Part shown: piece after piece, positions 37,319 to 54,232 of the stretch
How the letters are laid out: the number at the start of each line of letters is the position of its first letter
How positions within the stretch are numbered: the first letter of the stretch is position 1
DNA from: Paenibacillus sp. FSL W8-0186
GTDB lineage: Bacteria > Bacillota > Bacilli > Paenibacillales > Paenibacillaceae
Direction of reading: 5' to 3'
DNA: 64,000 nucleotides
Assembly (NCBI RefSeq): GCF_037969765.1
Contig: NZ_CP150207.1
Span: 5,029,501 to 5,093,500 of the forward strand
Notes under the pieces: model-generated
Told to the model about the DNA's origin: nothing
Databases searched by the model: none
The model's input: only the letters and a program-made list of their open reading frames with translations
Translations under genes and position numbers: made by a program

Positions 37319-37867
37319 CTAATCCTGCTCGATCAAACCATATTTCCCGTCATTCCGTTTATAGACGACGTTTAGTTCTTTCGTATCGATGTTGGAAAAT
37401 ACAAAGAAATTATGGCCGACCATATTCATCTGCAGTATGGCTTCTTCCACGTCCATTGGTTTCATTGTAAACCGCTTCGTGCGGACGACTTCCAGATCAT
37501 CGCTGTCCGCTTCATCCACGGCGACTGAGCCGCCATTCTCAACGAACAGGCTCTTCAGACTGCCTTCCTGACGGAACTTGCGATTGATCTTCGTCTTATG
37601 CTTGCGTATCTGGCGTTCGAGCTTGTCCACGACTGCATCAATCGATGCATACATGTCATCACTGCGATCCTCAGCGCGAAGCACGACGCCGGTTAGAGGA
37701 ATCGTAACCTCCACCGTATGCAAACCGCGTACGACACTTAACGTGACGTAGCCTTCTGAGGTAGGGGGTGCTTCAAAGTACTTGTCAAGTCGACTGAGCT
37801 TCTTGTCTACGTAATCTCGCAGTGCGTCAGTCACTTCAATTTGCTGTCCACGAATACTAAAATTCAT
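37319..37867 (-). CDS. hpf: Ribosome hibernation promoting factor, long form
   Basis: A 182-residue protein: an N-terminal ribosome-binding S30AE domain (~1-100, FSIRGQQIEVTDALRDYVD), a linker, and a C-terminal dimerisation domain (~125-180, RFTMKPMDVEEAILQMNM) that joins two 70S into 100S ribosomes in stationary phase. It is the YvyD ortholog. GGAGGAG precedes ATG 37867. The promoter at 37897-37925 is an excellent sigma-A match; sigma-B or sigma-H control, known in Bacillus, is not evident in what I checked. Confidence 0.96.
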   Translation of the reverse strand: MNFSIRGQQIEVTDALRDYVDKKLSRLDKYFEAPPTSEGYVTLSVVRGLHTVEVTIPLTGVVLRAEDRSDDMYASIDAVVDKLERQIRKHKTKINRKFRQEGSLKSLFVENGGSVAVDEADSDDLEVVRTKRFTMKPMDVEEAILQMNMVGHNFFVFSNIDTKELNVVYKRNDGKYGLIEQD

Positions 37868-38189: not shown

Positions 38190-38387
38190 TTATAATTTGA
38201 TTACGTTAGCCGCTTGCGGTCCGCGAGCGCCTTCAACGATCTCGAACTCTACAGATTGTCCTTCTTCCAGCGTTTTGAAGCCTTCGGATTGAATAGCCGA
38301 GAAGTGTACGAACACGTCTGCGCCTTCTTCAGTCTCAATAAAGCCATAACCCTTCTCTGCGTTAAACCATTTCACTTTACCTTGCAT
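38190..38387 (-). CDS. csp: Cold-shock protein (CspB/CspD family)
   Basis: A 65-residue single OB-fold RNA chaperone. RNP1 is KGYGFIETE (~12-20) and RNP2 is DVFVHFSAI (~24-32). The N-terminus [13 protein letters not shown] is canonical. Monocistronic, with its own terminator. The leader of at least 100 bp up to ugd could hold the long 5' UTR usual for csp genes. Confidence 0.96.
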
Positions 38388-38564: not shown

Positions 38565-39923
38565 TTATTTTTTATTACCCTGGAAGGGGAGGGGTGAAAC
38601 AGGGTAAGAATGATTTAGATAAATGCTTGATCTACCAACTGAATGATATTCGATTTTAAGCTTTTGAATCTTCGTCATGTCTAAACAATTTCTTCCGTCA
38701 AAAATGACAGGTTTCCCCATCTTAGACACATACAGTTCCAAATCAAAATTTACGATCTCAGGCCACTCTGTTAATATAAACACACAGTCTGCGTCTTGGA
38801 TTGCATCTTCAATATTTGATAAAAACTCTACTTCCTCTGGCAGCAGCTTTCTCGCATTATCTATTGCTATAGGGTCATAAGCACTTACCACAGCGCCGGA
38901 CTTTATTAAGTCTGTCACAACAGTGAGTGAAGCTGCCTCTCTCATGTCATCAGTATTGGGTTTAAAGGCCAGTCCTAACACAGCAATCTTCAACCCCTCT
39001 AAGGATCCAAATCTCCTCTTTGCCTTTTCGGTCAAAATATTTTGCTGTTTCTTATTCACTTCAATCACAGATCTTAATAGCTCAAAATCATGATTTGCAT
39101 TTCCCGCAATTTGCATAAGTGCATTAGTGTCCTTGGGAAAACACGACCCTCCATATCCGATACCTGCATTCAAAAAGTGCGCGCCAATCCGCTTGTCCAT
39201 TCCCATTCCCTGAGCTACTTCTGTAATGTCTGCGTCAAGCTTCTCACATAAGTTGGATATTTCGTTAATAAAGCTTATTTTCGTAGCAAGAAAGGCATTC
39301 GAAGCATATTTAATCATCTCTGCACTTCGTATAGATGTCTTATATATTGGGATCTGAAATGGCTTGTTGATCTCTTCAATCATTTCTGCCGCCTTCACAC
39401 TATCAGAACCGATAATTATTCGATCACCATAAAATGTATCATTGATGGCAGATCCTTCTCTTAAAAACTCAGGATTCGACACCATTTCAAATGATACGCT
39501 ATCATTCGACTTATTATATTCAATTATGGCTTTGAGCCGGTCGCCTGTTCCAATCGGTACTGTACTTTTCGTTACTATAACCACATCATTACTAATTTGA
39601 TCGGCAATAGCAATCGCTGCATCCTCAAGCGCACTCAGATCAGCTGTACCATCTTCATTTGAAGGGGTACCAACCGCAATGTATATTACTTCTGCTCTAA
39701 TCAACCCTTCATTATATTGATTGGTAAAATGCAATCTGCCCTCAGCCATATTTTTAACAATTAATTCTTCAAGGCCCGGTTCATAAATAGGTGATTTACC
39801 GCTTCTCAACAAATTAATTTTCAAGGCATCGATATCAATACAAGTGACAATATGTCCTATTTCCGCCAAGCAAACCCCCGTCACAAGGCCAACATATCCT
39901 GTTCCAATCACGGATATTCTCAT
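38565..39923 (-). CDS. ugd: UDP-glucose 6-dehydrogenase
   Basis: A 452-residue NAD-dependent dehydrogenase making UDP-glucuronate. It has the Rossmann start ISVIGTGYVGLVTGVCLAE, the catalytic Cys in GYGGSCFPKDTNAL (~260), and the UDP-binding C-terminal domain with VLGLAFKPNTDDMREA. The last ~15 residues (VSPLPFQGNKK) extend beyond the usual end and form an inverted repeat in the DNA. GGAG precedes ATG 39923. It is the last gene of the glycan block and could supply UDP-GlcA, or UDP-Xyl through another enzyme, to the glycosyltransferases. Base composition is clearly more AT-rich than secA or the arg genes. Confidence 0.95.
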   Translation of the reverse strand: MRISVIGTGYVGLVTGVCLAEIGHIVTCIDIDALKINLLRSGKSPIYEPGLEELIVKNMAEGRLHFTNQYNEGLIRAEVIYIAVGTPSNEDGTADLSALEDAAIAIADQISNDVVIVTKSTVPIGTGDRLKAIIEYNKSNDSVSFEMVSNPEFLREGSAINDTFYGDRIIIGSDSVKAAEMIEEINKPFQIPIYKTSIRSAEMIKYASNAFLATKISFINEISNLCEKLDADITEVAQGMGMDKRIGAHFLNAGIGYGGSCFPKDTNALMQIAGNANHDFELLRSVIEVNKKQQNILTEKAKRRFGSLEGLKIAVLGLAFKPNTDDMREAASLTVVTDLIKSGAVVSAYDPIAIDNARKLLPEEVEFLSNIEDAIQDADCVFILTEWPEIVNFDLELYVSKMGKPVIFDGRNCLDMTKIQKLKIEYHSVGRSSIYLNHSYPVSPLPFQGNKK

Positions 39924-39974
39924 GAGGCATCACTCCAAATTTTAGATCATATCCTAAGAATAATTACTTAATTT

Positions 39975-40640
39975 TTATAGCCGTAACCTCCATCGAGCCT
40001 TTGTAGTGCTTTGACATCTTGTAATCAATTGAAATTGGTGTTTTTCCAAAATCATTTTTAATGAATGAAATGAGAAGTAATGCAAATGCCCTGCCTCTTT
40101 CCACATCGCATCATCAAACTTAACAAATTGGGCGTGGGCGCTCTGATAATTAGGTGTCGATATCCAGAGTATGCCTCTATCATTTAATAGATCATACGCT
40201 TTTCTAATTGTAGCCGCTGGATCCTCAATATGTTCAATAACATCTCCCATAGTGATAACATCGTATCTTTTATCCGTTTCGTATTTCAAAAAATCACAAG
40301 CTGTTACTGGAATGCCCAAAAAATTCGCGATATGATCAGCTTGCTTTTTTACGATTTCTAAACCTTCAACTTCAAAATGTAGCTCTTTTGCCACTGCTAG
40401 AAGTTCCCCTCCACCAATACCTACATCGAGTAGCTTCTTACCAGTTACATTTCTTTTCAATTCTCGTAAATTTTCTCCGATTGTTGGTAGAAAATCCAAT
40501 TTTGAAGGCATCAAATTAAAATTTATACCATCAAATTTCATATCACTTAATGAAGAGGGATTGTTATACGAAAATATATGTTCACAAGGTTCGCAATACA
40601 TCCAAACTTTAACCGGACTGTACATACTGTTATAACTCAT
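39975..40640 (-). CDS. SAM-dependent methyltransferase, 5' part displaced by a frameshift
   Basis: A class I methyltransferase: motif I LLDVGIGGGELLAVA, acidic DVITMGDVIEHI and STPNYQSAH. The first ATG is at 40640, but coding clearly continues upstream in the same frame. Codons at 40686-40697 give CPFC, followed by YFC and then YCEPC downstream of the ATG: a zinc-ribbon arrangement like that preceding NovU/TylC-type C-methyltransferases. The extension has no ATG, GTG or TTG before it meets a stop near 40830. It overlaps the end of the TPR frame at 40738-41151. The simplest reading is a single gene (41241 to 39975) broken by a frameshift near 40745 and an in-frame stop. The substrate is unknown; a sugar is likely from context. 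Confidence 0.75.
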   Translation of the reverse strand: MSYNSMYSPVKVWMYCEPCEHIFSYNNPSSLSDMKFDGINFNLMPSKLDFLPTIGENLRELKRNVTGKKLLDVGIGGGELLAVAKELHFEVEGLEIVKKQADHIANFLGIPVTACDFLKYETDKRYDVITMGDVIEHIEDPAATIRKAYDLLNDRGILWISTPNYQSAHAQFVKFDDAMWKEAGHLHYFSFHSLKMILEKHQFQLITRCQSTTKARWRLRL

Positions 40641-40737
40641 ACCCGAAAATGATTCCGCACAAAAATAAGGCCGTGCTTCCTTTTGGCAAAAAGGGCAGTC
40701 ACTTTCTAAAATTTCGTCTACTTCTTCATAAAAGTAA

Positions 40738-41151
40738 TTATGTGAAGGATAACTTATTAATAGAATTATTTGTCTTAAAGGAAATTTTATACATATTAAA
40801 GGCGTATAGTGGGTCAGAGCTACTATTCACTTGTGCTAATCGATAATAAGCAATTGATTGATAATCTATATTATTTACACTAACCAAACTGTTATAGCAT
40901 TTAGAGGCGACAGCATGGTCGCCTTTCCTAAATGACTCTTCCCCTAAATCAAATAGCAGATACATTCTCCATTGGTAGAACGAATCATTAACAACAGTAA
41001 AATTCTCATTGGTAGACAAGAAGTTTCCCATTATTTCAATCAATTGATTAGTGTATTTGGTAATGACCTCACTATTTTGTACATAGTTCATTTGTTTTAG
41101 AGCTTGTAAGCCATTGATGAGGTCATGAATCAAAAAGGACAATTCGTGCAT
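40738..41151 (-). CDS. TPR-like helical protein, probable middle part of a broken gene
   Basis: 137 codons, rich in Leu/Tyr/Asn helices. One TPR-like pair is visible: LFDLGEESFRKGDHAVASKC and SIAYYRLAQVNSSSDPLYAF. The ATG at 41151 has no ribosome site and is immediately preceded, in the same frame, by a TAG that ends a 29-codon frame with a good ribosome site. Its own end (KLSFT) falls where the methyltransferase frame takes over as LISYPSHNYFYEE. It therefore looks like an internal fragment, not an independent gene. It lies within the AT-rich glycan block. Confidence 0.5.
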   Translation of the reverse strand: MHELSFLIHDLINGLQALKQMNYVQNSEVITKYTNQLIEIMGNFLSTNENFTVVNDSFYQWRMYLLFDLGEESFRKGDHAVASKCYNSLVSVNNIDYQSIAYYRLAQVNSSSDPLYAFNMYKISFKTNNSINKLSFT

Positions 41152-41241
41152 CTAATCATGATTTTTATGAGCCAAATAATCTACAGCTTCAGCCAAAGTG
41201 TCAACCATGTTGTTAATTTGCTCAATTTCATTAGAATTCAT
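41152..41241 (-). CDS. 29-codon frame, probable N-terminus of the broken TPR-methyltransferase gene
   Basis: Begins at ATG 41241, seven bases after AAAAGGAG, and reads as amphipathic helix (EIEQINNMVDTLAEAVDYL) to TAG at 41152-41154. The next codon, in frame, is the ATG of the TPR frame. It may be a genuine tiny leader peptide, but the good ribosome site here and its absence at the next ATG favour one gene interrupted by a nonsense codon. Confidence 0.4.
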   Translation of the reverse strand: MNSNEIEQINNMVDTLAEAVDYLAHKNHD

Positions 41242-41268
41242 TATTTGCTCCTTTTAAACCCAAACGCT

Positions 41269-43152
41269 CTAATCCTTTGAAGTAACCATATTGACCAGCT
41301 CAAAAACACTAGACACTAGCTCGTGATCATCCCAGTTATTCTGTACTGCAGTTTGGGCTAAATTATGAATGTTTTGAATGGCCGCTCCACTAAAACAAGG
41401 GTTACCGAAACTCTGAGAGTTTTTTCTAACTATTAATAAATCCTGCTTTGCTTCTTGCAGCAATCCCCTTGCAGCCAAAATAACCGCTCTATCAATAAAT
41501 GCCTCTAACATAAGCGTGACATTGTCAGACTCGAAAGTTTCCCTATACATCTCATTGATAGGAATCGATTGGTACAGCTTTCTAAAAATTATTTGTTCAT
41601 ATTCTGCTGTTTTAGAAACTAATTGATCATAAGAAACGGGATCTGCAGCTGAGCCCCTACTACCTGCATGCACTCTATATCTTACCGTTGGTACAGGGAT
41701 ATATTCTATACTATTCAGGTTGGCTAGTCTAAGCCAAAAATCATAATCTTGAGCCCTTACTAGTTCCTCATCCCAACCTCCTAATTGTTCGAGGCAGCTT
41801 TTCCTAAAGACAACGGTAGGCCCATGAATAAAGCAGCCTCTCATTAACATTTGAAAATCTAATTTATTACTATCTATAGGAGACAAATCATGTACTCTTA
41901 TTACCTGACCATTAACATCATTGAAATCAATCGAGCGGGTATGAATTAATCCCAATTCGGGATTTTGTAAAAATCTCTTTAATTGAAGCTCTAGTTTTAA
42001 AGGTAATGCAATGTCATCATCATCAAACACCCAGATGAAATCACCATTAGCCTGTTTAATAGCTACATTTAGTGCGGATGATTTCCCCCCGTTTTCCTTA
42101 TAAATATAATTAATTTTATCTAAATAAGGTGAAAGTTCTTCCTTTGGAGATTCAACAGAACCATCATCAATAACAATAATTTCAACATTTTTATGGGTTT
42201 GATCTAAAATAGACTGTATCGTTTCAGAAATATATTCTTTCCGATTATATGTGGGAACAATAACCGAAACAAGTTGGTTACTTTTGGGAAAACTGTAAGG
42301 CTGAGGCAAGAAAAGTGAATTTATATCGTTTGAAGCAACTTCGTATTCTTCATAAGGCTTGATTAGAAAACCCATAATCCATTCATTCGGGACCTTACTA
42401 TTCCAATGCAGCGAGCATCCGATTGAAAATTCAACTAAATTATTGAGAATTCTTTTGGTAAATATATTATAATGATCCGGATCTGGGATAGAATATCCAT
42501 TTGGTACACTTATAATGATGGTACCTCCAGGTTTACAAACCCGAAAGGCTTCCTTAATGATTTTTTTAGGATCATCAACATGCTCAAGGACTTCTGCAAC
42601 AACAACAGTATCAAACGTATGATCTGGAAATTGGAGTTGATAACCGTTTCCTACTTGAAAACGGCAATTATCGAATCCTAGTTTTGCAGCCTTGTGCCTC
42701 GCCAAATCAATAGCAATAGGATCAATATCAATGCCGTATAAGTTAGATCCATGGCTAGCAATAAATACTGAAAGGTCCCCATTCGCACAACCGATCTCCA
42801 ATACGTCCCCATAACACAATGGGGCAGTTTCGGCCATCCTCTTTAACTCTTGCTGGTTACGGAGCCTACGGTAATTCCCCCATCTTTCTTTCAGCTTTGG
42901 ATCGTTTATATACTTCATAACCTCTAAAGTTATACCTGATAGTTCTTTGGCATCCATCAAATCTGTACTATTTTGAAGATACCACTCTGCTGGTTGATGA
43001 TTCCCTACAATCATGGATAATAGTCCCAAACAGAAGGAAATCTCTTTATTCTCTGGGTTTATGGCTAACTCTGAAAAACAAAAACCATATCCGATTTCCG
43101 GGCTACCTTGTTGAATTGACTCAATCACTTGTTGTAATAATTTAGTTGGCAT
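41269..43152 (-). CDS. Methyltransferase-GT2 glycosyltransferase fusion
   Basis: About 627 residues in three parts: a helical N-terminus (~1-100, TPR-like), a class I SAM methyltransferase (~105-240; DVLEIGCANGDLSVFIASHG, VVVAEVLEHVDDP), and a GT-A family 2 glycosyltransferase (~300-520; VSVIVPTYNRKEYISET, nucleotide-sugar VIDDGS and metal-site FDDDD), then a helical tail. It probably adds and methylates a sugar in one polypeptide; the acceptor is unknown. The start is ATG 43152, with AGGAG 10 nt before; an earlier frame start at 43230 would overlap the preceding gene by 44 bp. Follows the GT2-TPR gene and precedes the broken methyltransferase gene. Confidence 0.88.
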   Translation of the reverse strand: MPTKLLQQVIESIQQGSPEIGYGFCFSELAINPENKEISFCLGLLSMIVGNHQPAEWYLQNSTDLMDAKELSGITLEVMKYINDPKLKERWGNYRRLRNQQELKRMAETAPLCYGDVLEIGCANGDLSVFIASHGSNLYGIDIDPIAIDLARHKAAKLGFDNCRFQVGNGYQLQFPDHTFDTVVVAEVLEHVDDPKKIIKEAFRVCKPGGTIIISVPNGYSIPDPDHYNIFTKRILNNLVEFSIGCSLHWNSKVPNEWIMGFLIKPYEEYEVASNDINSLFLPQPYSFPKSNQLVSVIVPTYNRKEYISETIQSILDQTHKNVEIIVIDDGSVESPKEELSPYLDKINYIYKENGGKSSALNVAIKQANGDFIWVFDDDDIALPLKLELQLKRFLQNPELGLIHTRSIDFNDVNGQVIRVHDLSPIDSNKLDFQMLMRGCFIHGPTVVFRKSCLEQLGGWDEELVRAQDYDFWLRLANLNSIEYIPVPTVRYRVHAGSRGSAADPVSYDQLVSKTAEYEQIIFRKLYQSIPINEMYRETFESDNVTLMLEAFIDRAVILAARGLLQEAKQDLLIVRKNSQSFGNPCFSGAAIQNIHNLAQTAVQNNWDDHELVSSVFELVNMVTSKD

Positions 43153-43186
43153 GAACGCAAGTCTCCTGTCTTGGGATTTATTTATG

Positions 43187-45076
43187 TTATCCTGCTGTAC
43201 TAAGTTGCGAATTAACCCATTTTGATACAATATCCCAATTCATCATCTCACCTAGAATTGACTTTAGGGTGTTAGCATCCTGTGTCTGGATAGCTAAATT
43301 ACAGATATGAAAAGCAATTTCAGCATCAGGCTTATTCTTATATGCTTCTTTATAATGATATAAGCTGTCTTCTAGCATATTAAGTCGCCGCAATGCCTGA
43401 GCAGCCAAAAGATTAATATTATAGCTTTCTTCTTGGTTTGTTCCTTGTAAGAGTACATCAAGAAGAACTTCATAAAATCCCTGCTCATACATTGCTTTTG
43501 CAAGAATAAAACGCATTTGAGAGGTAGTAAATTGATTCATGAAATAGTCAATTAAATCGTACTTCTGAAGTCTCAAAATATCCGTGATTAGAACACTAAC
43601 AATATCCTGAAAATCCTTTGTGAAATTTTCACATTTAATATCCTTCATTTCTATTAGCTTTAGTATGACCCTCTTCTCAGCAGTACGGAGAGATGCATTT
43701 TGGAGAATGCGTTCAGCTAACTCCTTGTTTTGCATAAGTATGCTTACTAATAAAATATCTCTTTGATCCTTTTCTTCGTACTTCTGTTTGCTGCTCCAGT
43801 AATTCCAGGAATCCTCATAGTTTCCCTTTAAAAGGTTAATAAAAGACAAAGCCTCTTCATCACATTTAATGTTGTATTTATTCATAAATTGAATTATTAC
43901 AGGATGCCTTAATTGATATAATGCTTCAATCAATTGCTGAATAACCTTTTCTTCCTGCGGCCATAAGGCGGAGATCTGTTTGAACAAATCTTCATTATCA
44001 TGATATAAGTTAAAATCTAATAGACTTTTCAGTAATCCCATAACATGAGGGGCCTGGCTTATCGCAACACGTAGATTAGCATCAGCCTGACCAAATTCAA
44101 AGTTTGAGTAAGCAATTTCTGCCAGTCGAGTAGAAGCTAAGTAACTACCGGTGCCCTCATAGGTATTAAAATGGATGCTTACATCACTATCGCCAACTTC
44201 AATACAATTCTCAAAGCACTCCCTGGCATCAGGTAAATAACCCAATTCCTGATATATGAGTCCCTCATAATATTTGAATTCTACATAATTTGAATATAAT
44301 TTAAATGCATCATTGGCTATTGACAAAGCATCTTTATATTGTTTCAGCATTATTAAGCTTTGAATTAGACCAAGAAGCAGTTTTATAGTAAATGTATAGT
44401 TGTCACCGTAAGAATAAGACTTTTTATAAGCCTCAAGAGCTTTTGTATATTCGCCAGAGATAAAATACTGCTGCCCTAGATTATAATAATTAAAAGCCGA
44501 TGGATTTTCGTCAACTTCCTTCAATAATATTTGTAAGTTCCGTTCAAGTTTACCCTGCTGGTTAACAACTTTTGTTAAGTAGCCATCATGATGAATGATC
44601 ATCTCACTTAATATTTGACTGCTTCTATGCCAATTGGATTGAATGTCAATTTGTTCATGAATTGCACCATGGTACATTAGTTCAGGTATCCTTACAAATA
44701 AACGAGGAAATTTATGAATTTCCGCTAATCCGCCACCTAAATCATTACGAATTGGTATATAGTAAATTTCATTAGTAAGATGTTGCTTAAGTTGATTGAG
44801 GGGATCTTCAATCCATTCGTCAGCATCCAACTGTAGAATATAATCAGAGGTAGCTTGCTCAATTGCATAATTTCTAGCATTAGCAAAGTTATTATCCCAT
44901 TGGTAGTGAAATATTTTCGCGTCATACTTATTCAATAATTCAAGGGTCTTGTCGGTAGAACCTGTATCCACAATAATAATTTCATCCACAACTGAAGCAA
45001 CACTATCTAAACAACGTTGTATACAACGTTCCTCATTCTTAACAATCATACATAAAGATATAGTAGATTTTTTCAT
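43187..45076 (-). CDS. GT2 glycosyltransferase with long TPR tail
   Basis: 629 residues. The N-terminal GT-A domain (~1-230) begins STISLCMIVKNEERCIQRCL, with IIVDTGSTDKT (nucleotide site) and LQLDADEW (metal-binding Asp pair). The remaining ~400 residues are TPR-like helices (SAFNYYNLGQQYFISGEYTK, YYEGLIYQELGYLPDARECF). GT2-TPR proteins of this sort often glycosylate protein surfaces. AGGAGG precedes ATG 45076. Eight bp follow the previous glycosyltransferase gene, so the two are one unit. Confidence 0.88.
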   Translation of the reverse strand: MKKSTISLCMIVKNEERCIQRCLDSVASVVDEIIIVDTGSTDKTLELLNKYDAKIFHYQWDNNFANARNYAIEQATSDYILQLDADEWIEDPLNQLKQHLTNEIYYIPIRNDLGGGLAEIHKFPRLFVRIPELMYHGAIHEQIDIQSNWHRSSQILSEMIIHHDGYLTKVVNQQGKLERNLQILLKEVDENPSAFNYYNLGQQYFISGEYTKALEAYKKSYSYGDNYTFTIKLLLGLIQSLIMLKQYKDALSIANDAFKLYSNYVEFKYYEGLIYQELGYLPDARECFENCIEVGDSDVSIHFNTYEGTGSYLASTRLAEIAYSNFEFGQADANLRVAISQAPHVMGLLKSLLDFNLYHDNEDLFKQISALWPQEEKVIQQLIEALYQLRHPVIIQFMNKYNIKCDEEALSFINLLKGNYEDSWNYWSSKQKYEEKDQRDILLVSILMQNKELAERILQNASLRTAEKRVILKLIEMKDIKCENFTKDFQDIVSVLITDILRLQKYDLIDYFMNQFTTSQMRFILAKAMYEQGFYEVLLDVLLQGTNQEESYNINLLAAQALRRLNMLEDSLYHYKEAYKNKPDAEIAFHICNLAIQTQDANTLKSILGEMMNWDIVSKWVNSQLSTAG

Positions 45077-45084
45077 ATTGCCTC

Positions 45085-46173
45085 CTATGATAGCTGCGCT
45101 AAACGAGAATCTGCTAATTTAAAACCTAACCCGCCACTTGTCTTATAATGAAACTTAGCTTTTTCTAAATTTCCTGATAATTCATAATACAAGCCCAAAT
45201 TATAATGGGCCAGATACGTCCCAGCCCCTTTTTCACCTTCATATTTATGTGGATCAGCATCTCCCAACTCAACACATCGTTCGAAAGCTGTTGGAATCAA
45301 TTGAAAAGATTCTATGGTTCTAATCTCAATTAATGCACTGCCATATATATAATATAAATCGGTATAATCATGAAAAATCTGAATAGCAAAGTCTAAAAGA
45401 GATAATAATTGAGTCCATTCTTTCGTTCGTAGAAAGGTCTCTGCTAAAGTCCGAATTATACTAGGGTAAAATGGCATATTGCTATTAGAATATTTGTATG
45501 CCTCTGTAAGATAAGTTAAAGCTTCATCATACTGTTTATTAACAAAATAAGTTTTGCCAATTTGAAATAGAGTATACGGTTCATTTGCATGGTCATTTAA
45601 TTGCGCAAAAAGTAATTTTAAATTCCTCGCAATTTTATCTTTTGATAAAATTGTTTTTTTTGTATATCCGTAATGCGTTAATCTAATTTTAGTAACAACT
45701 GTTTCTGGGGGGGCCTCATTATATAATAATTGCTCATGAATGCGTCCTGAATACTGGAATCCAATCTTATTGGGGAACAGCCGTATGATTTGTGCTACTG
45801 AAATTCGATTATCATCATTAATATTATTTATCTCCACTCTTCCAACTAGGTTTGAAGCATTCTGGAGCAATGAAACAGCATGCTCGAGATCTGTTAAGCT
45901 AGGATTCACTAATCTCTCATCTGCGTCTAGCATTAATACATAAGGTTGAGCTGCATACTTAATTAATTCATTTCTGGATTTTCCAAAATCGTCTGCCCAT
46001 ATGCCGTTCCTAACAACAGCACCTTCACTAGCAGCTATTTCTCTAGTTAGATCAGTTGATCCCGTATCCAGAAGGATGACTTCTTTAACAAACTTATTAA
46101 CCGAGCGTATACAATCGGCAATAACATCTTCTTCATTTTTCGCTAATATACAAACAGATATTGGTGCCTTCAC
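45085..46173 (-). CDS. GT2 glycosyltransferase with short TPR tail
   Basis: 362 residues, a shorter paralogue of the downstream enzyme: GT-A domain with ISVCILAKNEEDVIADCIRS, VILLDTGSTDLTRE and LMLDADERLV, then TPR-like helices (LFQIGKTYFVNKQYDEALTY, AHYNLGLYYELSGNLEKAKF). Starts at GTG 46173, 7-8 nt after AGAGGGA. First gene of the glycosyltransferase run; the hairpin 46222-46261 separates it from the VWA/TIG gene. Confidence 0.88.
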   Translation of the reverse strand: MKAPISVCILAKNEEDVIADCIRSVNKFVKEVILLDTGSTDLTREIAASEGAVVRNGIWADDFGKSRNELIKYAAQPYVLMLDADERLVNPSLTDLEHAVSLLQNASNLVGRVEINNINDDNRISVAQIIRLFPNKIGFQYSGRIHEQLLYNEAPPETVVTKIRLTHYGYTKKTILSKDKIARNLKLLFAQLNDHANEPYTLFQIGKTYFVNKQYDEALTYLTEAYKYSNSNMPFYPSIIRTLAETFLRTKEWTQLLSLLDFAIQIFHDYTDLYYIYGSALIEIRTIESFQLIPTAFERCVELGDADPHKYEGEKGAGTYLAHYNLGLYYELSGNLEKAKFHYKTSGGLGFKLADSRLAQLS

Positions 46174-46221
46174 AGTTGAGATCCCTCTTTTCTAATCTTT
46201 CTAGACATTTCCTGCAGCAAA

Positions 46222-46261
46222 TAAAATCAGGTGCTCCTCTATAAAATTATAGAGAAGCACC
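46222..46261 (-). terminator. Hairpin between the VWA/TIG gene and the glycosyltransferases
   Basis: GGTGCT(C)CTCTATAA / TTATAGAG(A)AGCACC is a near-perfect 15-bp stem; on minus the tail is TGATTTTATTT. A moderate terminator or attenuator. Confidence 0.65.
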
Positions 46262-46283
46262 TTTAAATTAATCAAAATAGTAT

Positions 46284-49200
46284 TTATTGATAAGTAAATC
46301 CATCTACTAGTATTTCTGAGGCTTGGCCATCTGGATTAATAATTCGGACTGGAACCGGACCTGTTACAGCCGAAGCAGGTGTCCTAAATCTCAGTTGAGA
46401 GGAGCTTAAATACGTTGCATCAACTACTACGCCATTTATCTCTATTTTAGCTCCGCTTTGAATATTAGACCCAGTAACAGTAACAATAGTTCCACCATTG
46501 ATACCGCCCACATTTGGAGTTAACTTAGTCACTATTGGAGCAGGCTTAGGTGCTGGCGCTGTATATACATATCCGCCACTCAAAATTGCTGATTGTTGAC
46601 CATCTGGGTTAATAACTTGGACATCTACTGCTGCTGCAGACGGCCAAGAAGGTACTTTAATCCTAAGTTGTGTCGCACTTATATAAGTCGCGGCAATCTC
46701 TTCACCATTAAAATATACGCTTGCACCACTTATGAAATTGCTTCCACTGACGGTGACCTGTCCTCCACCAGAAATCAATCCAGTATTCGGAGATAAGCTT
46801 GTAACTGTCGGCGGAGGATTCTGAAGGAATGTAAAACCATCTACTAACTGGCCAGACTGCCCGTCTGGATTAATTACACTCAGTGTAACAGTCTCTGGAT
46901 TAGGCCAGATAGGCGTAGCAACACGCAATTGCGTTTTACTTAAGTACGTTGTTGCTAGCTCTGTATTTCCAAATGCAACCCTTGAACCATTTACAAAATT
47001 TTCGCCAATTACTGTTATTAAACTACTCTTAGATGCAAGTGCTGTGTTCGGCGAGGCACCTGTTACAATTGGTGCCGGTGGCGGTGGCGGGGTTACAAAT
47101 TTAAATCCATCTACCAATGTTCCCGACTTACCGTCAGGATTCTCAACTGTTACATTCACGTTTTCCGCAATGGACCATGCAGGTGTTCTTAATCTGAGTT
47201 GAGACTGACTCAGGTAAGTAGCAGGAATCTCTGTATCATTAAAGAATACCTTTGCCCCACTTTGGAAATGTTGCCCTGTAATAGTTACAAGTGTCCCAGT
47301 TCCCGGTATTTCTAATGAGTTTGGAGAAACTGAAGTAACAACCGGATCTGGTTTTGGAGGAGGTGCTATAAAAGTAAAGGCATTATCCAAAGAAGCTGAC
47401 TGCCCATCCTCCGATATTACAGTTACTTTTACTGTAGCCGCTGAATCCCAGGCTGGTGTTTTAATACGAAGTTCTGAAGAAGATAATAACGACGATGAGA
47501 TAATCGTGTCGTCAAACTTTACAACAGAATTCGCAAAAAAGTTACTGCCTTTTATTGTAACAGTCGTGCCACCTGCTTGTGGTCCGCTATTAGGAATTAC
47601 TTCTGTTATAACAGGTGCTGGTGGCGGTGGCGGTACCTCAAAGGTATAAGCATTTGCTAATAAGGCAGTTTGTCCATCAGCGTTCTGAACCTTAACATCT
47701 ACTACATCACTTTTTCCCCATGCTGGAGTAGTGATACGGAGTTCAGTTGCAGAAATAAATGTACTACTAACTTCTTCATCAGCTAAGAACACTTTAGAAT
47801 CATTTTTAAAATTAGTACCCGTCAGTCTAACCGTCGTTCCTCCTTCTATCGGCCCAGAGTTGGGCGATATTGCAGTTAGCGTCGGTCCAGGCAGCGGATC
47901 GAATTTATAGCCATTTACTAGCTCGGCTGACTGATCATCCGGATTAGTAACTCTAACAGTGACTGATTCTGCTTTTGGCCAAGCTGGTACCCTAAGCCGC
48001 AGTTCAGAGCTACTAACAAACGTATATGTTAACTCTTGATCATTAAAATACAATTTCAGACCCTTTTCAAAATTCAGACCTTTAATTGTTGCGTTATTGC
48101 CCCCAGTAACCGAACCTGATGATGGAGTGATGCTAGTGATTGACGGCGCAGGCGGTTTAGGAAGTGGTAAATATTCAAATGCATCTGGCAGGCTCAGTCT
48201 AAACCCTGTGGATGTTTGGATACTAACATCAACCGTTTCAGGAGAAGGCCATACAGGTGATTTAACTACAATCCTGGATGCGGCAACTGACTCTGTTGCC
48301 ACCTCATGATCATCAAAGTACACTTTGACATCACTTGGGAAATTTGTACCATTTAAAGTTACAGTTGTTCCACCGGTTATTAACCCTGTTGTTGGCGTTA
48401 TAGAAGCAAAAGTTGGATCAGGAGGGGCCAGATACTGGAATACATCCCTCATCTCTAACTCTTTAGCGTCTGGATTAATAATCTTCAAGGAAACCAGCTC
48501 TGGATTAGGCCACGCAGGAGTTTTGAAACGAATCTCACTGGAATTTACAAACGTGTAATCAGTGATTTCTTGCCCTCCCCACAGCACTTTTGCACCTGTT
48601 TTAAAGTAATCCCCCTTTATGATAACCACAGTTCCGCCAGCCATAGGACCTGTAGAAGGGGTCACTGATGTAATAGCAGGAACAGGGTCTTCATAGGTGT
48701 AACCCTTAGTAAGGGTAGCACTTTGGCCATTTGGATTTACTACCTTCACATCAACTGTGTCAGCTTTAGACCATACTGGAGTAATTAATGAAATCTCTTG
48801 ACTGGAAACAAATGTTGAGTTGACTAAAGTCGAATTAAAATAAACTTTAGCTCCATCAACAAATCTTTCACCTGTTAATTTCACCTGCTCTCCACCAGTT
48901 CTAGCTCCTACTGAAGGGTCGACTGCTAAAATCTCAGGGCCTTTAATGTATGTAAATGAATCTGTTGCCGTCACTGTAGTGCCATCAGGATTGTTAACAG
49001 TTACATCAACCGTTTTAGCCGTAGTACCGGCTGGGGTAGTGATTTCAAGCTCTGTTTTTCCAACCTTCGTAACGGTGGCTGCTTTACCGTCTATTAATAC
49101 TTGCGCCCCAGTCATGAAGTAATCTCCGTTAATAACAACCTTCGTTCCTCCCTCAAGAGGTCCTTCATTTGGTGTTATTGTTGTAATTTCAGGGGTTGCA

Positions 49201-50522
49201 TAGTAGCGATAGTCCGCAGTTGCAAATTGACCATCGTCATTGGTTACTTTAATTTGAACAGTTCCTTGCGTACCAGCAGGAGCAGTTACAATTAATTGAT
49301 TTGCGCTTACATAATTTACGGATGTTAATTTAATATTGCCAAAGTTCACTACTGGATTCGGCCTGAAGTGGTCACCATAAATGATAACCTCTTCCCCACC
49401 TTGAATTGGGCCATTATCTTTGTCGACAGATGTGATGATAGGCGCATAATGTTTTACTTTGACTGTGGGCTGTGTTACAGTATACTGACGTTGCGCCCCC
49501 AAATAGTTCTTATATCCAACATTTATTTTTTGGTCTCCAGCAGGTAAGTCCCCTACCGCCGCACCTTGTTTATGCCGAATCTTGTATTTAAAAGTAAGCA
49601 ACTCATTTTTCAACTCAAGAAAATTCCAAGAAATGGAGTTTCCAGAAATGGTCGGTTGTGGTATATTATCCTTGTAAGAATCTGGCACTATTTCAAACTC
49701 TGGAGAAATATAGTCCGTAACTCTTACATCATATGCACTTGCAATACCTATTTCCTGAACAATCGCCGCATAAATTTCAGCGAGCCCCACGGATCCAAGC
49801 ACAAAGTGATGGTGGTGTGCGGTAGTAGCCATATCCATCATCAATTTATTTGGTCCGCTAGTTACTGGGTTTTCAGTAGGTAGCAACAATGCAATCGTAT
49901 AGAATACGATGCCTGCCTCCTTCGCTTCCCTTGCTTTCTCCATCGCAAATCCATATGGGTTTGAGTCTGGAACTGTTGCATCTCCATCCGTCATGAGAAT
50001 AATAACTGGCTGGGCATCTTCTCTATGATCCCGCAACATTTCCATTGCTTTGTCAATAGCAGCCCCTGTTGCTGTGCTCCCACTGGCTTGAATTGTGTTG
50101 ATGTAATTTTTGGCTGCTGTCTTATCCGTGGTAAGAGCGAATGCGCTTGCCGATGTGCTATAATCTACAATTCCGACGCGATGCTTCGTCAGGTCCATTA
50201 AATCAATAAATCCTTTAGCCGCATCCTTGGCGTTTCTCATCTTGTCTTCGCCGTTATTTGGCCCATAGGTTGGAGCCATACTGCCTGACTTATCAATAAT
50301 TAGAATAACATCGTTAGGCTTAACGACGTTCTGATCTGGTGTTCCTTGAACATTAATAGTTACTTCCGTTTCTCCTCCCACAAATATTTCAGTAGGATTC
50401 AATGACTTTGTAACTTGCACATTTTCGCTCCCGGAAGCCGCATAAACTGCCTGCAGGCCTGGAAGTTGTGCGAAAATCAACATAAAAGCCAGAAAAATCA
50501 ATAACCCAGACTTCCTTTTCAT
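46284..50522 (-). CDS. Giant secreted VWA protein with twelve IPT/TIG repeats
   Basis: 1412 residues. Signal peptide LLIFLAFMLIFAQLPGLQAV ending VYA-AS. A VWA domain (~70-258) has an intact MIDAS: DKSGS, the Thr of GSTATG and Asp of MTDGD. After a ~100-residue beta-rich linker come twelve IPT/TIG immunoglobulin-like repeats of about 88 residues (each opening like ITSVTPSTGPMAGG and ending GYKF/GYTY), several joined by Pro-rich linkers. There is no LPxTG, SLH or membrane tail, so retention must be non-covalent. Ribosome site GGGAGG precedes ATG 50522, and fliT ends 17 bp upstream with no terminator, so it reads as the last gene of the flaG-fliD-fliS-fliT unit. A flagellum- or surface-bound adhesin is the inference; direct evidence is only context. 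Confidence 0.92.
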   Translation of the reverse strand: MKRKSGLLIFLAFMLIFAQLPGLQAVYAASGSENVQVTKSLNPTEIFVGGETEVTINVQGTPDQNVVKPNDVILIIDKSGSMAPTYGPNNGEDKMRNAKDAAKGFIDLMDLTKHRVGIVDYSTSASAFALTTDKTAAKNYINTIQASGSTATGAAIDKAMEMLRDHREDAQPVIILMTDGDATVPDSNPYGFAMEKAREAKEAGIVFYTIALLLPTENPVTSGPNKLMMDMATTAHHHHFVLGSVGLAEIYAAIVQEIGIASAYDVRVTDYISPEFEIVPDSYKDNIPQPTISGNSISWNFLELKNELLTFKYKIRHKQGAAVGDLPAGDQKINVGYKNYLGAQRQYTVTQPTVKVKHYAPIITSVDKDNGPIQGGEEVIIYGDHFRPNPVVNFGNIKLTSVNYVSANQLIVTAPAGTQGTVQIKVTNDDGQFATADYRYYATPEITTITPNEGPLEGGTKVVINGDYFMTGAQVLIDGKAATVTKVGKTELEITTPAGTTAKTVDVTVNNPDGTTVTATDSFTYIKGPEILAVDPSVGARTGGEQVKLTGERFVDGAKVYFNSTLVNSTFVSSQEISLITPVWSKADTVDVKVVNPNGQSATLTKGYTYEDPVPAITSVTPSTGPMAGGTVVIIKGDYFKTGAKVLWGGQEITDYTFVNSSEIRFKTPAWPNPELVSLKIINPDAKELEMRDVFQYLAPPDPTFASITPTTGLITGGTTVTLNGTNFPSDVKVYFDDHEVATESVAASRIVVKSPVWPSPETVDVSIQTSTGFRLSLPDAFEYLPLPKPPAPSITSITPSSGSVTGGNNATIKGLNFEKGLKLYFNDQELTYTFVSSSELRLRVPAWPKAESVTVRVTNPDDQSAELVNGYKFDPLPGPTLTAISPNSGPIEGGTTVRLTGTNFKNDSKVFLADEEVSSTFISATELRITTPAWGKSDVVDVKVQNADGQTALLANAYTFEVPPPPPAPVITEVIPNSGPQAGGTTVTIKGSNFFANSVVKFDDTIISSSLLSSSELRIKTPAWDSAATVKVTVISEDGQSASLDNAFTFIAPPPKPDPVVTSVSPNSLEIPGTGTLVTITGQHFQSGAKVFFNDTEIPATYLSQSQLRLRTPAWSIAENVNVTVENPDGKSGTLVDGFKFVTPPPPPAPIVTGASPNTALASKSSLITVIGENFVNGSRVAFGNTELATTYLSKTQLRVATPIWPNPETVTLSVINPDGQSGQLVDGFTFLQNPPPTVTSLSPNTGLISGGGQVTVSGSNFISGASVYFNGEEIAATYISATQLRIKVPSWPSAAAVDVQVINPDGQQSAILSGGYVYTAPAPKPAPIVTKLTPNVGGINGGTIVTVTGSNIQSGAKIEINGVVVDATYLSSSQLRFRTPASAVTGPVPVRIINPDGQASEILVDGFTYQ

Positions 50523-50539: not shown

Positions 50540-50881
50540 CTAATTTTTTAAATCTACAAAAAAAGCGCCGACATTATAGTTACTTGATTTGCCATAATGA
50601 TCATTAGCGCGCTTTTTTCTTTCAAAAAGGTCAATTTCCTCGTTTAAACTACTCTTTTCCTCTAAAATGACATGGATGATTTGCTCATGTAAAATCCGAA
50701 CCTCTGATAAAAGAATTAGATCAGCTTCACTTAATTGCATTTCACTAATTTTTTCAAATAGTGTCGTTATATCTGCTTCATATATCTGATACTGATCAAA
50801 GTTCGGATTATCCATTACTTTGCGATAAAGATTAAGAAGCTGTCCGACAGGGGTTACTGCATGTTTTTCTTCTTCATGCAT
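50540..50881 (-). CDS. fliT: FliT-like flagellar chaperone
   Basis: About 113 residues, mostly alpha-helical (PVGQLLNLYRKVMDNPNFDQ, IHVILEEKSSLNEEIDLFER). Sequence similarity in FliT is low, so the call rests on size, helicity and position directly after fliS. FliT binds the cap protein FliD in better-studied systems. ATG 50881 lies 10 nt after AGGTGGT and overlaps the fliS end by 8 bp. Confidence 0.7.
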   Translation of the reverse strand: MHEEEKHAVTPVGQLLNLYRKVMDNPNFDQYQIYEADITTLFEKISEMQLSEADLILLSEVRILHEQIIHVILEEKSSLNEEIDLFERKKRANDHYGKSSNYNVGAFFVDLKN

Positions 50882-51266
50882 GTACTTGTGTACCACCTGT
50901 CTTTAAAGATAACAAAGCCTGCTTCCATGTTGCTGCCAGGTCTCGTGCAAATTCTATTGTATCATTTAACATAGCCTCGTCTTTTTTAATAATAAACTCA
51001 GCAATGTACTGACTGTAGAATTCATATAACCTTCGCAAGTCTTTGGCAATATCATAATCCATGTTTAAAGTCACGATCAGCTCGCTTAGTATTAAGCGAA
51101 CTTTATGCAAGGGTGCATTCATGTCTTCAAACTGATTTTGAGAATATAACTTTTTGGCTAGAAGCAATGATTTGACCATCTCTTGGTATAAGAGTAAGGT
51201 TAATTCTCCAGGGCTCGCGGTCTCCACTTGAACTTTCAAATATTGCTGTTGTTGTGCGTAATGCAT
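50874..51266 (-). CDS. fliS: Flagellin export chaperone FliS
   Basis: 130 residues, with the FliS four-helix bundle: QYLKVQVETASPGELTLLLYQ, the conserved AxPxELTLLLYxxxxxxL region. It binds the flagellin C-terminus to prevent cytoplasmic polymerisation; in Bacillus it also affects FliW. GAGAGG sits before ATG 51266. Lies between fliD and fliT. Confidence 0.94.
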   Translation of the reverse strand: MHYAQQQQYLKVQVETASPGELTLLLYQEMVKSLLLAKKLYSQNQFEDMNAPLHKVRLILSELIVTLNMDYDIAKDLRRLYEFYSQYIAEFIIKKDEAMLNDTIEFARDLAATWKQALLSLKTGGTQVHA

Positions 51267-51322: not shown

Positions 51323-52804
51323 TCACTGACCTAATTGTGAAAACAACCATGAACTTTGATTATTCATCTTTTGCAGCGCAGCTTCCATTGCAGCAAACCT
51401 TTTGTAATAACGGGTTTCAATATCTTCTAGTTTTCTCTTCCAATTGGACTCTTGCTCAGATAGGGCCTTTAGTTGTTTACCAATAACACTATCATCCATA
51501 GCCTCTAGCGATCCGGTACCCATTTTTTTCTTAAATTTTTCCATCTGCACATTAGCTATATTATACAGCCGGTCTGCGATACCTATGTTACTTTTTCCTG
51601 CAGGAGGTGTTTCATCCGATGTTCTGACGAACAGTTCCTTCACTTCGTCAAACCGTGTATTAATTGCCTCCTGAAGCTTAGCTTCATCAATCTGCAGCTT
51701 CCCGTTTTCTCTATAGTCAGATATGACAGTAATACCGATGCTAGACAACAACTGGATTTGATCTTTAGGTACATTCAAGGGAGTATTTAGGGCACTTCTC
51801 ATGGATGACAATGTATCTCTAAGAATGCTATCGTTATACAGTGTGCCTTGTCTAGCCCGCTTTTCCCATTGAGTAATCTGACTCTCACTCATGGCCTCTT
51901 TCTGCTCCGTGGTGAGTGGTTCATATTCACGGTTGCGTCTGGTATCTGCAGCGGTTGAATAAAGATCAATCAAAGAATTGTATTGAGTAACAAAATCTTT
52001 GATTTTATCGACAATCCCGCTCCGATCGGTTACAACACCTATTGAAGCCTCTCCCGGACTACGCAAGGTAACTTGAACACCATTGATGGATACACTATTA
52101 GAAGCAGATTTAATTACATTTGTTGATCCATTCACATAATATTCGGCATCCGAGCCACTAGCACTTGATTGAGAAAGATTAAGAAAGCTCATAAAATTAT
52201 CGAGGCTATTGTCACTCGGGTTACTAGGATCCAAGCTTGCTATACTAATTTCCGAATTATCTCCCGTCTGTGAGGAACTCAAATAGAGAACACCGCTAGC
52301 TTTATCAAAATTAGCTTTGACACCAGTTTGAGAAGCTTTACTGTTAATATCCTTTACAATCGATTCTACCGTCGAAACGCCTGCAGTGAATGCCACCGTA
52401 GCCTTTCCATTGATAGAAATCGCTCCGCTCTGACTTATTGTTTGGGTAGCAGATGCAATTGGATTACTTACAATAGTTGCGGAGGTAGCAAGCTTATCTA
52501 CTCTAACCGAGCTAATTCCTGCAGAAGTCCCGCTCGATGCTATTTCAATTACAGAAGTATTCGAAGAGGTAGCTGTAGTTTTTTCAAAGTTACTTTCAAA
52601 ACGCAAATTGTTAATAGAATTCCGAAAAGACAAGAGCGCGGTATTCATCGCCTGATAATCTTCTCTCTGCCAAATCGTGAACTGCTTGCTTTTTAAAACT
52701 TTATCAAGTGGAACTCTTTCGGCTTGCATTAGCTTTGTAATAAGACTATCGGTATCTAGCGTCCCACTAAAACCAGTAATCCGGATTGGACTGTTGATTG
52801 CCAT
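51323..52804 (-). CDS. fliD: Flagellar hook-associated protein 2 (filament cap)
   Basis: 493 residues. FliD_N (~10-105, ITGFSGTLDTDSLITKLMQA), a variable middle, and FliD_C (~230-475) ending LQKMNNQSSWLFSQLGQ. It caps the growing filament and folds exported flagellin. AAGGAGG lies 7-8 nt before ATG 52804. Part of flaG-fliD-fliS-fliT. Confidence 0.95.
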   Translation of the reverse strand: MAINSPIRITGFSGTLDTDSLITKLMQAERVPLDKVLKSKQFTIWQREDYQAMNTALLSFRNSINNLRFESNFEKTTATSSNTSVIEIASSGTSAGISSVRVDKLATSATIVSNPIASATQTISQSGAISINGKATVAFTAGVSTVESIVKDINSKASQTGVKANFDKASGVLYLSSSQTGDNSEISIASLDPSNPSDNSLDNFMSFLNLSQSSASGSDAEYYVNGSTNVIKSASNSVSINGVQVTLRSPGEASIGVVTDRSGIVDKIKDFVTQYNSLIDLYSTAADTRRNREYEPLTTEQKEAMSESQITQWEKRARQGTLYNDSILRDTLSSMRSALNTPLNVPKDQIQLLSSIGITVISDYRENGKLQIDEAKLQEAINTRFDEVKELFVRTSDETPPAGKSNIGIADRLYNIANVQMEKFKKKMGTGSLEAMDDSVIGKQLKALSEQESNWKRKLEDIETRYYKRFAAMEAALQKMNNQSSWLFSQLGQ

Positions 52805-52830: not shown

Positions 52831-53166
52831 TTACAATTTTTCATCCACGAAGAGACCAACTCTTCTTGTGATGTTATACAGCATATCGAGCATTTTCTCA
52901 CTTGGAATTTCACGAATTACTTCATTGGTCTCGTCCTGCATTACAAGAACCATGATTGTATTTGTCTTATCATGAACCTTCACTTGGATATGAGTCCCGA
53001 GCTCTTCAAGTTTCTTATTCGTCATGTCAACAAGTTCAGGAATCGTCTTCTCTGGATTGTTTTTAGGCTTATCTGTATTCACTTCCAACGAAGCTTCGTT
53101 AGCAAGATTATTGAACCATGGCAGCAAGGACGAATGCGAAGAGTTTGAAGAAGGATCTATCCTCAT
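52831..53166 (-). CDS. flaG: FlaG family protein (YvyC)
   Basis: 111 residues. A disordered polar N-terminus and a conserved C-terminal FlaG domain (HIQVKVHDKTNTIMVLVMQD, EVIREIPSEKMLDML). FlaG limits filament length in some bacteria. ATG 53166 has AGGGGGG about 6 nt upstream; a GTG one codon earlier is also possible. The hag terminator lies just upstream, so this gene begins a new unit. Confidence 0.9.
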   Translation of the reverse strand: MRIDPSSNSSHSSLLPWFNNLANEASLEVNTDKPKNNPEKTIPELVDMTNKKLEELGTHIQVKVHDKTNTIMVLVMQDETNEVIREIPSEKMLDMLYNITRRVGLFVDEKL

Positions 53167-53202
53167 CACTCTCCCCCCTTTCCCCTACTAAAGGCCAGAT
53201 AT

Positions 53203-53242: not shown

Positions 53243-54094
53243 TTAACGAAGCAATTGCAGTACGCCTTGCGGCTGTTGGTTCGCTTGAGCCAACATAGCA
53301 GTTGCAGCTTGTTGAAGAATGTTGTTCTTCGTAAACTCAGACATTTCTTTCGCCATGTCAACGTCACGAATACGAGATTCAGCTGCTTGCAAGTTCTCGG
53401 AAGTAGTTCCAAGGTTGTTGATCGTATGTTCCAGACGGTTTTGAACAGCACCGAGATCAGAACGCATTCCAGATACAGTATTAATTGCCGCTTGAACAAG
53501 GCTCAAGTTAGCTTTTGCAATACTGTTCATGCTACCCATAGCAGTAGTAGCACCTTTCAACTCTTGAAGACCAGTAGTACTAAATTCAACACTCAATTGA
53601 GTAGCTGTAGCAGTTTCAAGCGACAAGCTAATTGTTTCTCCTGAGTTAGCACCCACTTGGAACAATACGCCAGTTGTATCACCGTTAAGCAATTTTTTAG
53701 TATTGAATTGAGTTTGTTCTGCAATGGAACCGATTTGTGCTGAAAGCTGTTTAACTTCAGAGTCAATCTTAGCAGCATCTTGAGTTGTCAACACTTCGTT
53801 CGCACCTTGTACATACAGCTCAGCCATACGTTGCAGCATAGCGTGAGTTTCGTTCAAAGCACCCTCAGCAGTTTGAATCAAGGAAATGCCGTCCAAAGCG
53901 TTCTTGGAAGCTTGCTCCAAGCCACGGATTTGGTTACGCATTTTCTCGGAAATCGCCAGACCAGCAGCATCGTCAGCAGCGCGGTTGATACGGTAGCCGG
54001 AAGACAGTTTCTCAAGGGATTTACCTTGTTGAGTGTTGTTGAACGTCAATTGACGTTGAGTGTTGTAAGAGCTGATATTGTGGTTAATACGCAT
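53243..54094 (-). CDS. hag: Flagellin
   Basis: 283 residues, a short flagellin with conserved D0/D1 ends: N-terminal MRINHNISSYNTQRQL and LEKLSSGYRINRAADDAAGL, C-terminal NQQPQGVLQLLR, and a middle of only ~50 residues rich in Thr and Ser (LSLETATATQLSVEFSTTGL), which is where O-glycosylation would be expected if the nearby glycosyltransferases act on it. ATG 54094 has AAGGAGG 9 nt upstream. The leader of ~105 nt, from the sigma-D promoter, holds candidate CsrA sites. Monocistronic. Confidence 0.97.
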   Translation of the reverse strand: MRINHNISSYNTQRQLTFNNTQQGKSLEKLSSGYRINRAADDAAGLAISEKMRNQIRGLEQASKNALDGISLIQTAEGALNETHAMLQRMAELYVQGANEVLTTQDAAKIDSEVKQLSAQIGSIAEQTQFNTKKLLNGDTTGVLFQVGANSGETISLSLETATATQLSVEFSTTGLQELKGATTAMGSMNSIAKANLSLVQAAINTVSGMRSDLGAVQNRLEHTINNLGTTSENLQAAESRIRDVDMAKEMSEFTKNNILQQAATAMLAQANQQPQGVLQLLR

Positions 54095-54103
54095 AATAAA
54101 TTT

Positions 54104-54139
54104 CCTCCTTGGAATGTTTTGGTGATTAGCATCCATGCT
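54104..54139 (-). promoter_or_regulatory. Candidate CsrA binding sites in the hag leader
   Basis: Site 1 (54128-54139) is an mRNA hairpin AGCA-UGGA-UGCU displaying GGA in its loop. Site 2 is the ribosome site itself, AAGGAGG (54104-54110). This two-site layout, with one over the Shine-Dalgarno, is how CsrA represses hag in B. subtilis. Inferred from sequence only. Confidence 0.55.
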
Positions 54140-54205: not shown

Positions 54206-54232
54206 ATATCGGCTGACTTGGGCTATTGTTTA
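54206..54232 (-). promoter_or_regulatory. sigma-D promoter of hag
   Basis: Minus: TAAA, exactly 15 nt, GCCGATAT. It matches the sigma-D/FliA consensus at every position. Confidence 0.93.

Follow-up and report, generated by a model that had tools for sequence, protein, structure and literature searches.

The closest described relative of the system analysed here is CmoA of Paenibacillus sp. NAIST15-1 (Kobayashi et al. 2016, PLoS Genet, PMC5072692). Our subject is a similar protein of Paenibacillus sp. FSL W8-0186, encoded next to a block of glycan genes in a window of 64,000 nucleotides (the whole stretch of DNA that was analysed; contig NZ_CP150207.1, positions 5,029,501 to 5,093,500), which is part of a 5.66-Mb genome in a single contig. 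NAIST15-1 CmoA has a signal sequence, one vWFA domain and eight IPT/TIG domains, and its gene stands last in a yvyC-fliD-fliS-small gene-cmoA operon; P. vortex, P. alvei, P. assamensis and strain Y412MC10 share this operon minus the small gene, and 29 CmoA homologs were listed. A cmoA deletion mutant still produces flagellin and spreads at 0.3 and 0.5% agar but fails at 1.0 and 1.5%, and it is restored by secreted protein of the wild type, i.e., by extracellular complementation. CmoA is found in secreted and surface fractions, a CmoA-mCherry fusion is located between cells and around clusters, and the proposed action is to draw water from the agar and/or smooth the interface. In our literature search for later work, the papers listed beyond that of 2016 named CmoA at most once each.

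Both halves of the locus, CmoA and flagellin glycosylation, are of kinds already known. In Listeria, the 637-residue GmaR joins a family 2 glycosyltransferase (GT2) domain, which attaches N-acetylglucosamine to flagellin, to tetratricopeptide repeats (TPR) thought likely to recognise flagellin (PMC9638930); the longer of two GT2-TPR enzymes in the window has 629 residues. In Geobacillus, strain-variable glycosyltransferase genes lie in the late flagellar locus (PMC5109656), with the island between flaA2 and flaG; the probable island of the window is between cmoA and hpf. P. alvei is reported to have a flagellin glycosylation island as well (Janesch et al. 2016, Glycobiology), and other papers also describe its flagellin as glycosylated. 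The first-pass annotation had called the coupling of such genes to a TIG protein with a metal ion-dependent adhesion site (MIDAS) an unrecognised combination. This does not hold, since the 2016 paper already placed CmoA in a fliD-fliS operon, also for P. alvei, and P. alvei flagellin glycosylation is also known. What is added here is the co-inheritance of cmoA with filament genes, a link to the flagellin lysine methylase FliB, and the replacement of the region within a species. Altogether, we consider it quite probable that the locus consists of a cmoA-ended flagellar operon and a flagellin glycosylation island, with CmoA in the role that it has in NAIST15-1.

The VWA/TIG protein and its operon

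By its sequence, the giant VWA/TIG protein of the window is a CmoA ortholog. It is identical to NAIST15-1 CmoA (locus L107) at 473 of 1069 aligned positions (44%), and the two match in domain order (signal sequence, one VWA domain, tandem TIG repeats) and in operon place, last after yvyC (flaG), fliD, fliS and a small gene. They differ in the number of TIG repeats, 12 in the window and 8 in NAIST15-1, and in what follows cmoA, glycosyltransferase genes in the window and fliB in NAIST15-1. The signal sequence was called by reading; a structural model has a hydrophobic helix at the N-terminus (residues 5-17). Among CmoA relatives the number of TIG repeats ranges from 7 to 19, and the MIDAS residues D, S, S, T and D are identical in all 45 CmoA proteins (44 loci, one with two copies). 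In the order-level relative G269 (L139), two nearby cmoA copies encode 1066 and 1844 residues with 8 and 17 TIG repeats.

The cmoA gene starts 17 bases past the gene at the fliT position and is therefore probably the final gene of flaG-fliD-fliS-fliT-cmoA; a hairpin scan listed no same-strand hairpin between fliD and the cmoA start. With a terminator-like hairpin 3' of cmoA (Table 1), the block probably forms two neighbouring transcription units, this operon and, past the hairpin, the glycan genes. The GC contents of the TIG gene (0.43) and the glycan genes (0.32-0.39) agree with such a division. In all, the scan gave 15 sites, compared with 11.5 in shuffled sequence, so that single weaker sites carry little meaning.

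How far does the tie to flagellar genes extend? Among the genomes sampled, cmoA is restricted to the order: at E <= 1e-40 it occurs in 31 of the order's 296 genomes and in 1 of 398 of the phylum sample, the window's own. In the family, the VWA region has a close match in 20 of 148 genomes (E < 1e-90; next match 3.8e-18), with fliS beside cmoA in 19 and ~14 kb off in one. Our neighbourhood survey covered 44 distinct cmoA loci and 60 cmoA-negative loci. L104, a distant VWA gene in one genome, was excluded from all counts, and L105, L107-L116, L119 and L120 were kept out of the 44 as apparent repeats, with contigs as long as those of loci already counted; the 60 comprise all 10 of the window's genus plus 50 from other genera, taken in order of handle, from a pool of 127 genomes with fliS among 128 cmoA-negative in all. 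Detection is slightly uneven, since most loci span ~20 kb, the window slice, G355 and G337 31-36 kb, and L138 7.8 kb. fliS lies within 5 kb at 43 of the 44 cmoA loci, which bears out the earlier view that the secreted MIDAS/TIG protein goes with the flagellar genes. At the remaining locus (L092, genome G040), fliS is ~13.7 kb away on the same strand, with hpf and secA between. In Brevibacillus thermoruber 423 (L118), cmoA lies between hag and flaG rather than after fliS, and the fetched stretch holds neither a GT2-TPR nor a FliB gene.

Could the chief role of CmoA instead be that of an adhesin to hosts or foreign surfaces, co-expressed with flagella, its hard-agar effect a by-product? A model of residues 1-360 (mean predicted local distance difference test score, pLDDT, 88.8) shows a VWA fold flanked by two strand-rich segments, and the lowest E-values in a Foldseek search of the PDB include the pilus-tip adhesins SpaC, Mfa5, PitA and RrgA as well as integrin beta3, although their template modelling scores (TM-scores), normalised by query length, reach just 0.39-0.47; the best such score among the matches listed, 0.64, belongs to a Catenulispora VWA protein (4fx5). 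The adhesin matches and the invariant MIDAS would favour this reading. However, the last 60 residues of the CmoA proteins contain no LPxTG, the window protein ends in a TIG repeat, and NAIST15-1 CmoA is secreted or at the surface, envelops clusters and works when supplied from outside (PMC5072692). That the protein acts chiefly as an adhesin, as suggested earlier, is not supported, and we regard it as unlikely. A flagellum-independent adhesin was rejected as the leading interpretation given the CmoA paper.

Inheritance with the filament genes

In a FliS tree of 104 rows, 28 of the 44 cmoA carriers group in a single clade with none of the 60 non-carriers inside (support 100, Shimodaira-Hasegawa-like approximate likelihood ratio test, SH-aLRT). 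This clade, to which the window's fliS belongs, spans several genera and two families, and all 28 rows again form one clade in the trees of FliD (support 100; 103 of the 104 loci) and Hag (support 99; 81 loci). In the trees of the neighbouring SecA and Hpf (68 and 72 loci), the group, present with 22 and 25 rows, needs 9 and 11 changes, and for SecA holding it together is rejected (approximately unbiased test, p-AU 0.0006). All are quick trees without bootstrap. The clade shared by Hag, FliD and FliS, along with the rejection for SecA, shows that CmoA has a common inheritance with flagellin, cap and chaperone, separate from that of the adjoining chromosome. Transfer is the simplest reading of this pattern; old polymorphism with repeated loss is a possible alternative.

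Flagellin modification genes are frequent neighbours of cmoA. FliB methylates flagellin and, in Salmonella, is reported to raise flagellar hydrophobicity. A fliB gene is present at 18 of the 44 cmoA loci and 2 of the 60 others, a GT2-TPR gene at 38 and 26, and one or the other at 41 and 28, respectively. FliB loci include that of NAIST15-1, where the fetched stretch has no GT2-TPR gene and FliB (NF038110, 312 bits) comes directly after cmoA; the window has glycosyltransferases there instead, and its genome gave no FliB match. Across whole family genomes, FliB occurs in 11 of the 20 that carry cmoA and in 16 of the 128 that lack it. In the fetched loci of the family sample it occurs in 10 of 20 carriers versus 2 of 60, and this holds when cmoA labels are shuffled within genera (p = 0.007). 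For GT2-TPR genes, the counts are 18 of 20 versus 26 of 60 (Fisher p = 0.0002), with p = 0.058 after shuffling within genera. The FliB link thus holds better than the GT2-TPR link. A cmoA-specific GT2-TPR link, strong in raw counts, is not claimed because it is not significant within genera. The first-pass annotation had suggested a survey of whether VWA/TIG genes, glycosyltransferases and flagellar genes occur independently; the answer is mixed, in that the tie of cmoA to flagellar genes stands and GT2-TPR genes, common at the locus, are also found where cmoA is lacking.

On a shorter time scale, alignments indicate that the cap-chaperone-CmoA-glycan region has been replaced within the species between similar flanks. 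Compared with a same-species strain (G355), the window is 97% identical over 26.9-38.6 kb and 98-100% from 36 kb to ~38605, unalignable or patchy from ~38.6 to ~53 kb (66-77% where >90 bases), and 84-99% identical beyond ~53 kb, so that the divergent segment also holds fliT, fliS, fliD and flaG. G355 carries its own cmoA, with a VWA region 63% identical, and a separate pair of GT2-TPR genes among different partners (L109). At the border, hag is 84-94% identical to that of G355, less diverged than fliD. In G337, a different species of the same genus, the VWA region is 98% identical; no alignable DNA was found there at 38.75-43.0 kb, nor a dehydrogenase in the fetched stretch. The block had first been described as a 12-kb insertion of AT-rich DNA. 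It is indeed AT-rich, but the bounds need to be redrawn: GC content at third codon positions (GC3) is low, 0.24-0.43, from the dehydrogenase through flgL (0.29-0.43 in fliT, fliS, fliD, hag, fliW and flgL; 0.64 in secA), so the AT-rich stretch exceeds the block first reported, and the strain-divergent DNA runs on to ~53 kb.

Glycan genes and layout of the locus

The glycan genes, which lie inside the flagellar locus and vary between strains, most likely form a flagellin glycosylation island, because the best match of both GT2-TPR proteins among solved structures is the flagellin glycosyltransferase GmaR of Listeria (Table 1). As in GmaR, the GT2 domain is followed by TPR. This kinship supports the earlier suggestion of a probable flagellin glycosylation island within the flagellar locus. 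A search of the genome for MogR (PF12181) gave no match, but the controls likewise matched nowhere, so that the negative carries no weight.

The enzymes had been proposed to decorate either flagellin or the TIG protein. Of these, flagellin remains the probable substrate. Glycosylation of CmoA itself, giving a glycosylated surface adhesin, would fit the adjacency of the genes and the GT2-TPR gene at most cmoA loci, but NAIST15-1 has a functional CmoA with FliB instead of a GT2-TPR gene at the locus (7 matches lie elsewhere in its genome, G138), and its CmoA-mCherry runs at a size consistent with the deduced mass (PMC5072692). Moreover, GT2-TPR genes occupy the same locus in the 26 cmoA-negative cases, and the nearest characterised enzyme, GmaR, acts on flagellin. 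Modification of CmoA is thus very unlikely.

The genes could alternatively make a cell-surface or extracellular polysaccharide, the dehydrogenase resembling TuaD of teichuronic acid synthesis. The dehydrogenase does score high on the TuaD model, though below the cut-off (574 vs 700 bits). However, no flippase or polymerase was found among the scanned open reading frames (ORFs) of the block, another UDP-glucose dehydrogenase (50% identity) is encoded elsewhere in the genome, and the best matches of the two GT2-TPR proteins include GmaR and SunS, a peptide glycosyltransferase; we find this reading of the block quite improbable. Within the probable glycosylation island, the methyltransferase gene in the region 39975-41151 may be disrupted, as two relatives (L093 and L140) have 341-342 residues compared with 221; read upstream in the same frame, its ORF continues without a stop across a CPFC motif, and the 137-residue ORF ahead of it has no relative among the fetched loci. 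As for the sugar, the flagellin glycan of P. alvei is reportedly an O-linked trisaccharide of hexose and N-acetylhexosamine, with two glycosyltransferase genes said to lie downstream of hag. Another paper lists P. alvei as one of the species that have nonulosonic acids, at odds with such a trisaccharide.

Several observations weigh against the reading that we favour. Within genera, GT2-TPR genes are not significantly more frequent beside cmoA. The likeness to GmaR is confined to the GT2 and TPR parts, with the antirepressor part unmatched (only query residues 136-365 align to chain 7x9r, residues 7-237), and we therefore call the enzymes GmaR-like. The window's genome has 8 matches in total to the 629-residue enzyme; with so many in this genome and that of NAIST15-1, enzymes encoded elsewhere might contribute. 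The flagellin of NAIST15-1 shows the size deduced from its sequence (PMC5072692), though in a strain without GT2-TPR at the locus. With regard to inheritance, the clade was first defined from FliS and only afterwards tested in the remaining trees, and it leaves out 16 cmoA carriers, which mostly lie among non-carriers. Finally, hag is only partly diverged from that of the same-species strain, and thus at strain scale hag may be exchanged independently of cmoA.

All genes named in the first-pass annotation were confirmed in place on the minus strand (Table 1). The product of the gene at the fliT position has no Pfam or NCBIfam match at E 0.001. A cold-shock-like gene, absent from the first account, lies near the point where strain-level divergence begins, ~220 bases upstream of the gene. 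An ORF of 188-195 residues is found at the place of the DUF6470 gene in 16 named loci, as judged by position. In the cmoA-negative loci L025-L084, the fliS-hpf interval is highly variable, from one small gene up to >10 kb of genes. A scan for SigD-like promoters gave 3 matches in the window against 0.65 expected (3 of 100 shuffles reach 3), and Rfam, tRNA and tandem-repeat scans were empty.

Table 1. Features of the cmoA locus in window coordinates
Feature	Position	Strand	Remark
hpf	37319-37867		
Cold-shock-like gene	38190-38387		read from sequence; between dehydrogenase and hpf
UDP-glucose 6-dehydrogenase	38565..39923	-	relative at 3 of 44 cmoA loci
Class I methyltransferase	39975..40640	-	ORF of 221 aa
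Orphan ORF	40738..41151	-	137 aa; ahead of methyltransferase
Methyltransferase-GT2 fusion	41269..43230	-	653 aa
GT2-TPR glycosyltransferase, GmaR-like	43187..45076	-	629 aa; GmaR chain 22ao, E 5.5e-35
GT2-TPR glycosyltransferase, GmaR-like	45085..46173	-	362 aa; GmaR chain 22ao, E 1.8e-26
Terminator-like hairpin 3' of cmoA	46229..46262	-	15 pairs
cmoA ortholog	46284..50522	-	1412 residues; Sec-type signal sequence, one VWA (complete MIDAS), 12 TIG
Small gene at fliT position	50540..50896	-	118 aa
fliS	50874..51266	-	divergent clade
fliD	51323..52804	-	filament cap
flaG (yvyC)	52831..53169	-	
Second terminator-like hairpin, 3' of hag	53232-53209	-	
hag	53243..54136	-	flagellin; likely start 54094 (MRIN after AGGAGG)
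SigD-like promoter ahead of hag	54207..54232	-	TAAA-N16-CCGATA
DUF6470 gene	55008-55580		between flgL and fliW

CmoA and the filament on hard surfaces

If the parallel with NAIST15-1 holds, CmoA would be exported by Sec and coat cells and cell clusters, where it may retain or draw water, or smooth the interface, and so enable flagellar movement over hard, dry surfaces. The VWA domain, predicted to sit between strand-rich segments ahead of a TIG stalk, could bind a ligand in a metal-dependent manner, with the flagellar filament or a cell-surface sugar as candidates. In the cytoplasm, the two GmaR-like enzymes would hold flagellin via their TPR and O-glycosylate it before export, and the methyltransferase-GT2 fusion may extend the glycan, perhaps with glucuronic acid made via the UDP-glucose dehydrogenase. 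Since CmoA has been inherited jointly with flagellin, cap and chaperone over the long term, it may depend on a filament that matches it. The strong drop in CmoA reported for a NAIST15-1 hag mutant (PMC5072692) fits this idea, but lower expression is among the alternative causes.

It is tempting to go one step further and regard hag, fliD, fliS and cmoA as a compatibility cassette, in which CmoA binds the matching filament via its MIDAS or TIG repeats, a glycan or lysine methyl group tunes contact and wetting, and the whole is swapped between strains and genera as mismatched parts fail on hard surfaces. The partial divergence of hag within the species makes this less likely, and we consider such a cassette doubtful, if worth keeping in mind.

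How CmoA enables flagella to work on hard, dry agar is a question on which co-inheritance bears. That cmoA has been inherited with one lineage of flagellin, cap and chaperone, and often has flagellin-modifying neighbours, directly raises the question of whether CmoA acts on the filament. The swap of the cap-chaperone-CmoA-glycan region at the strain level is relevant when swarming strains are compared.

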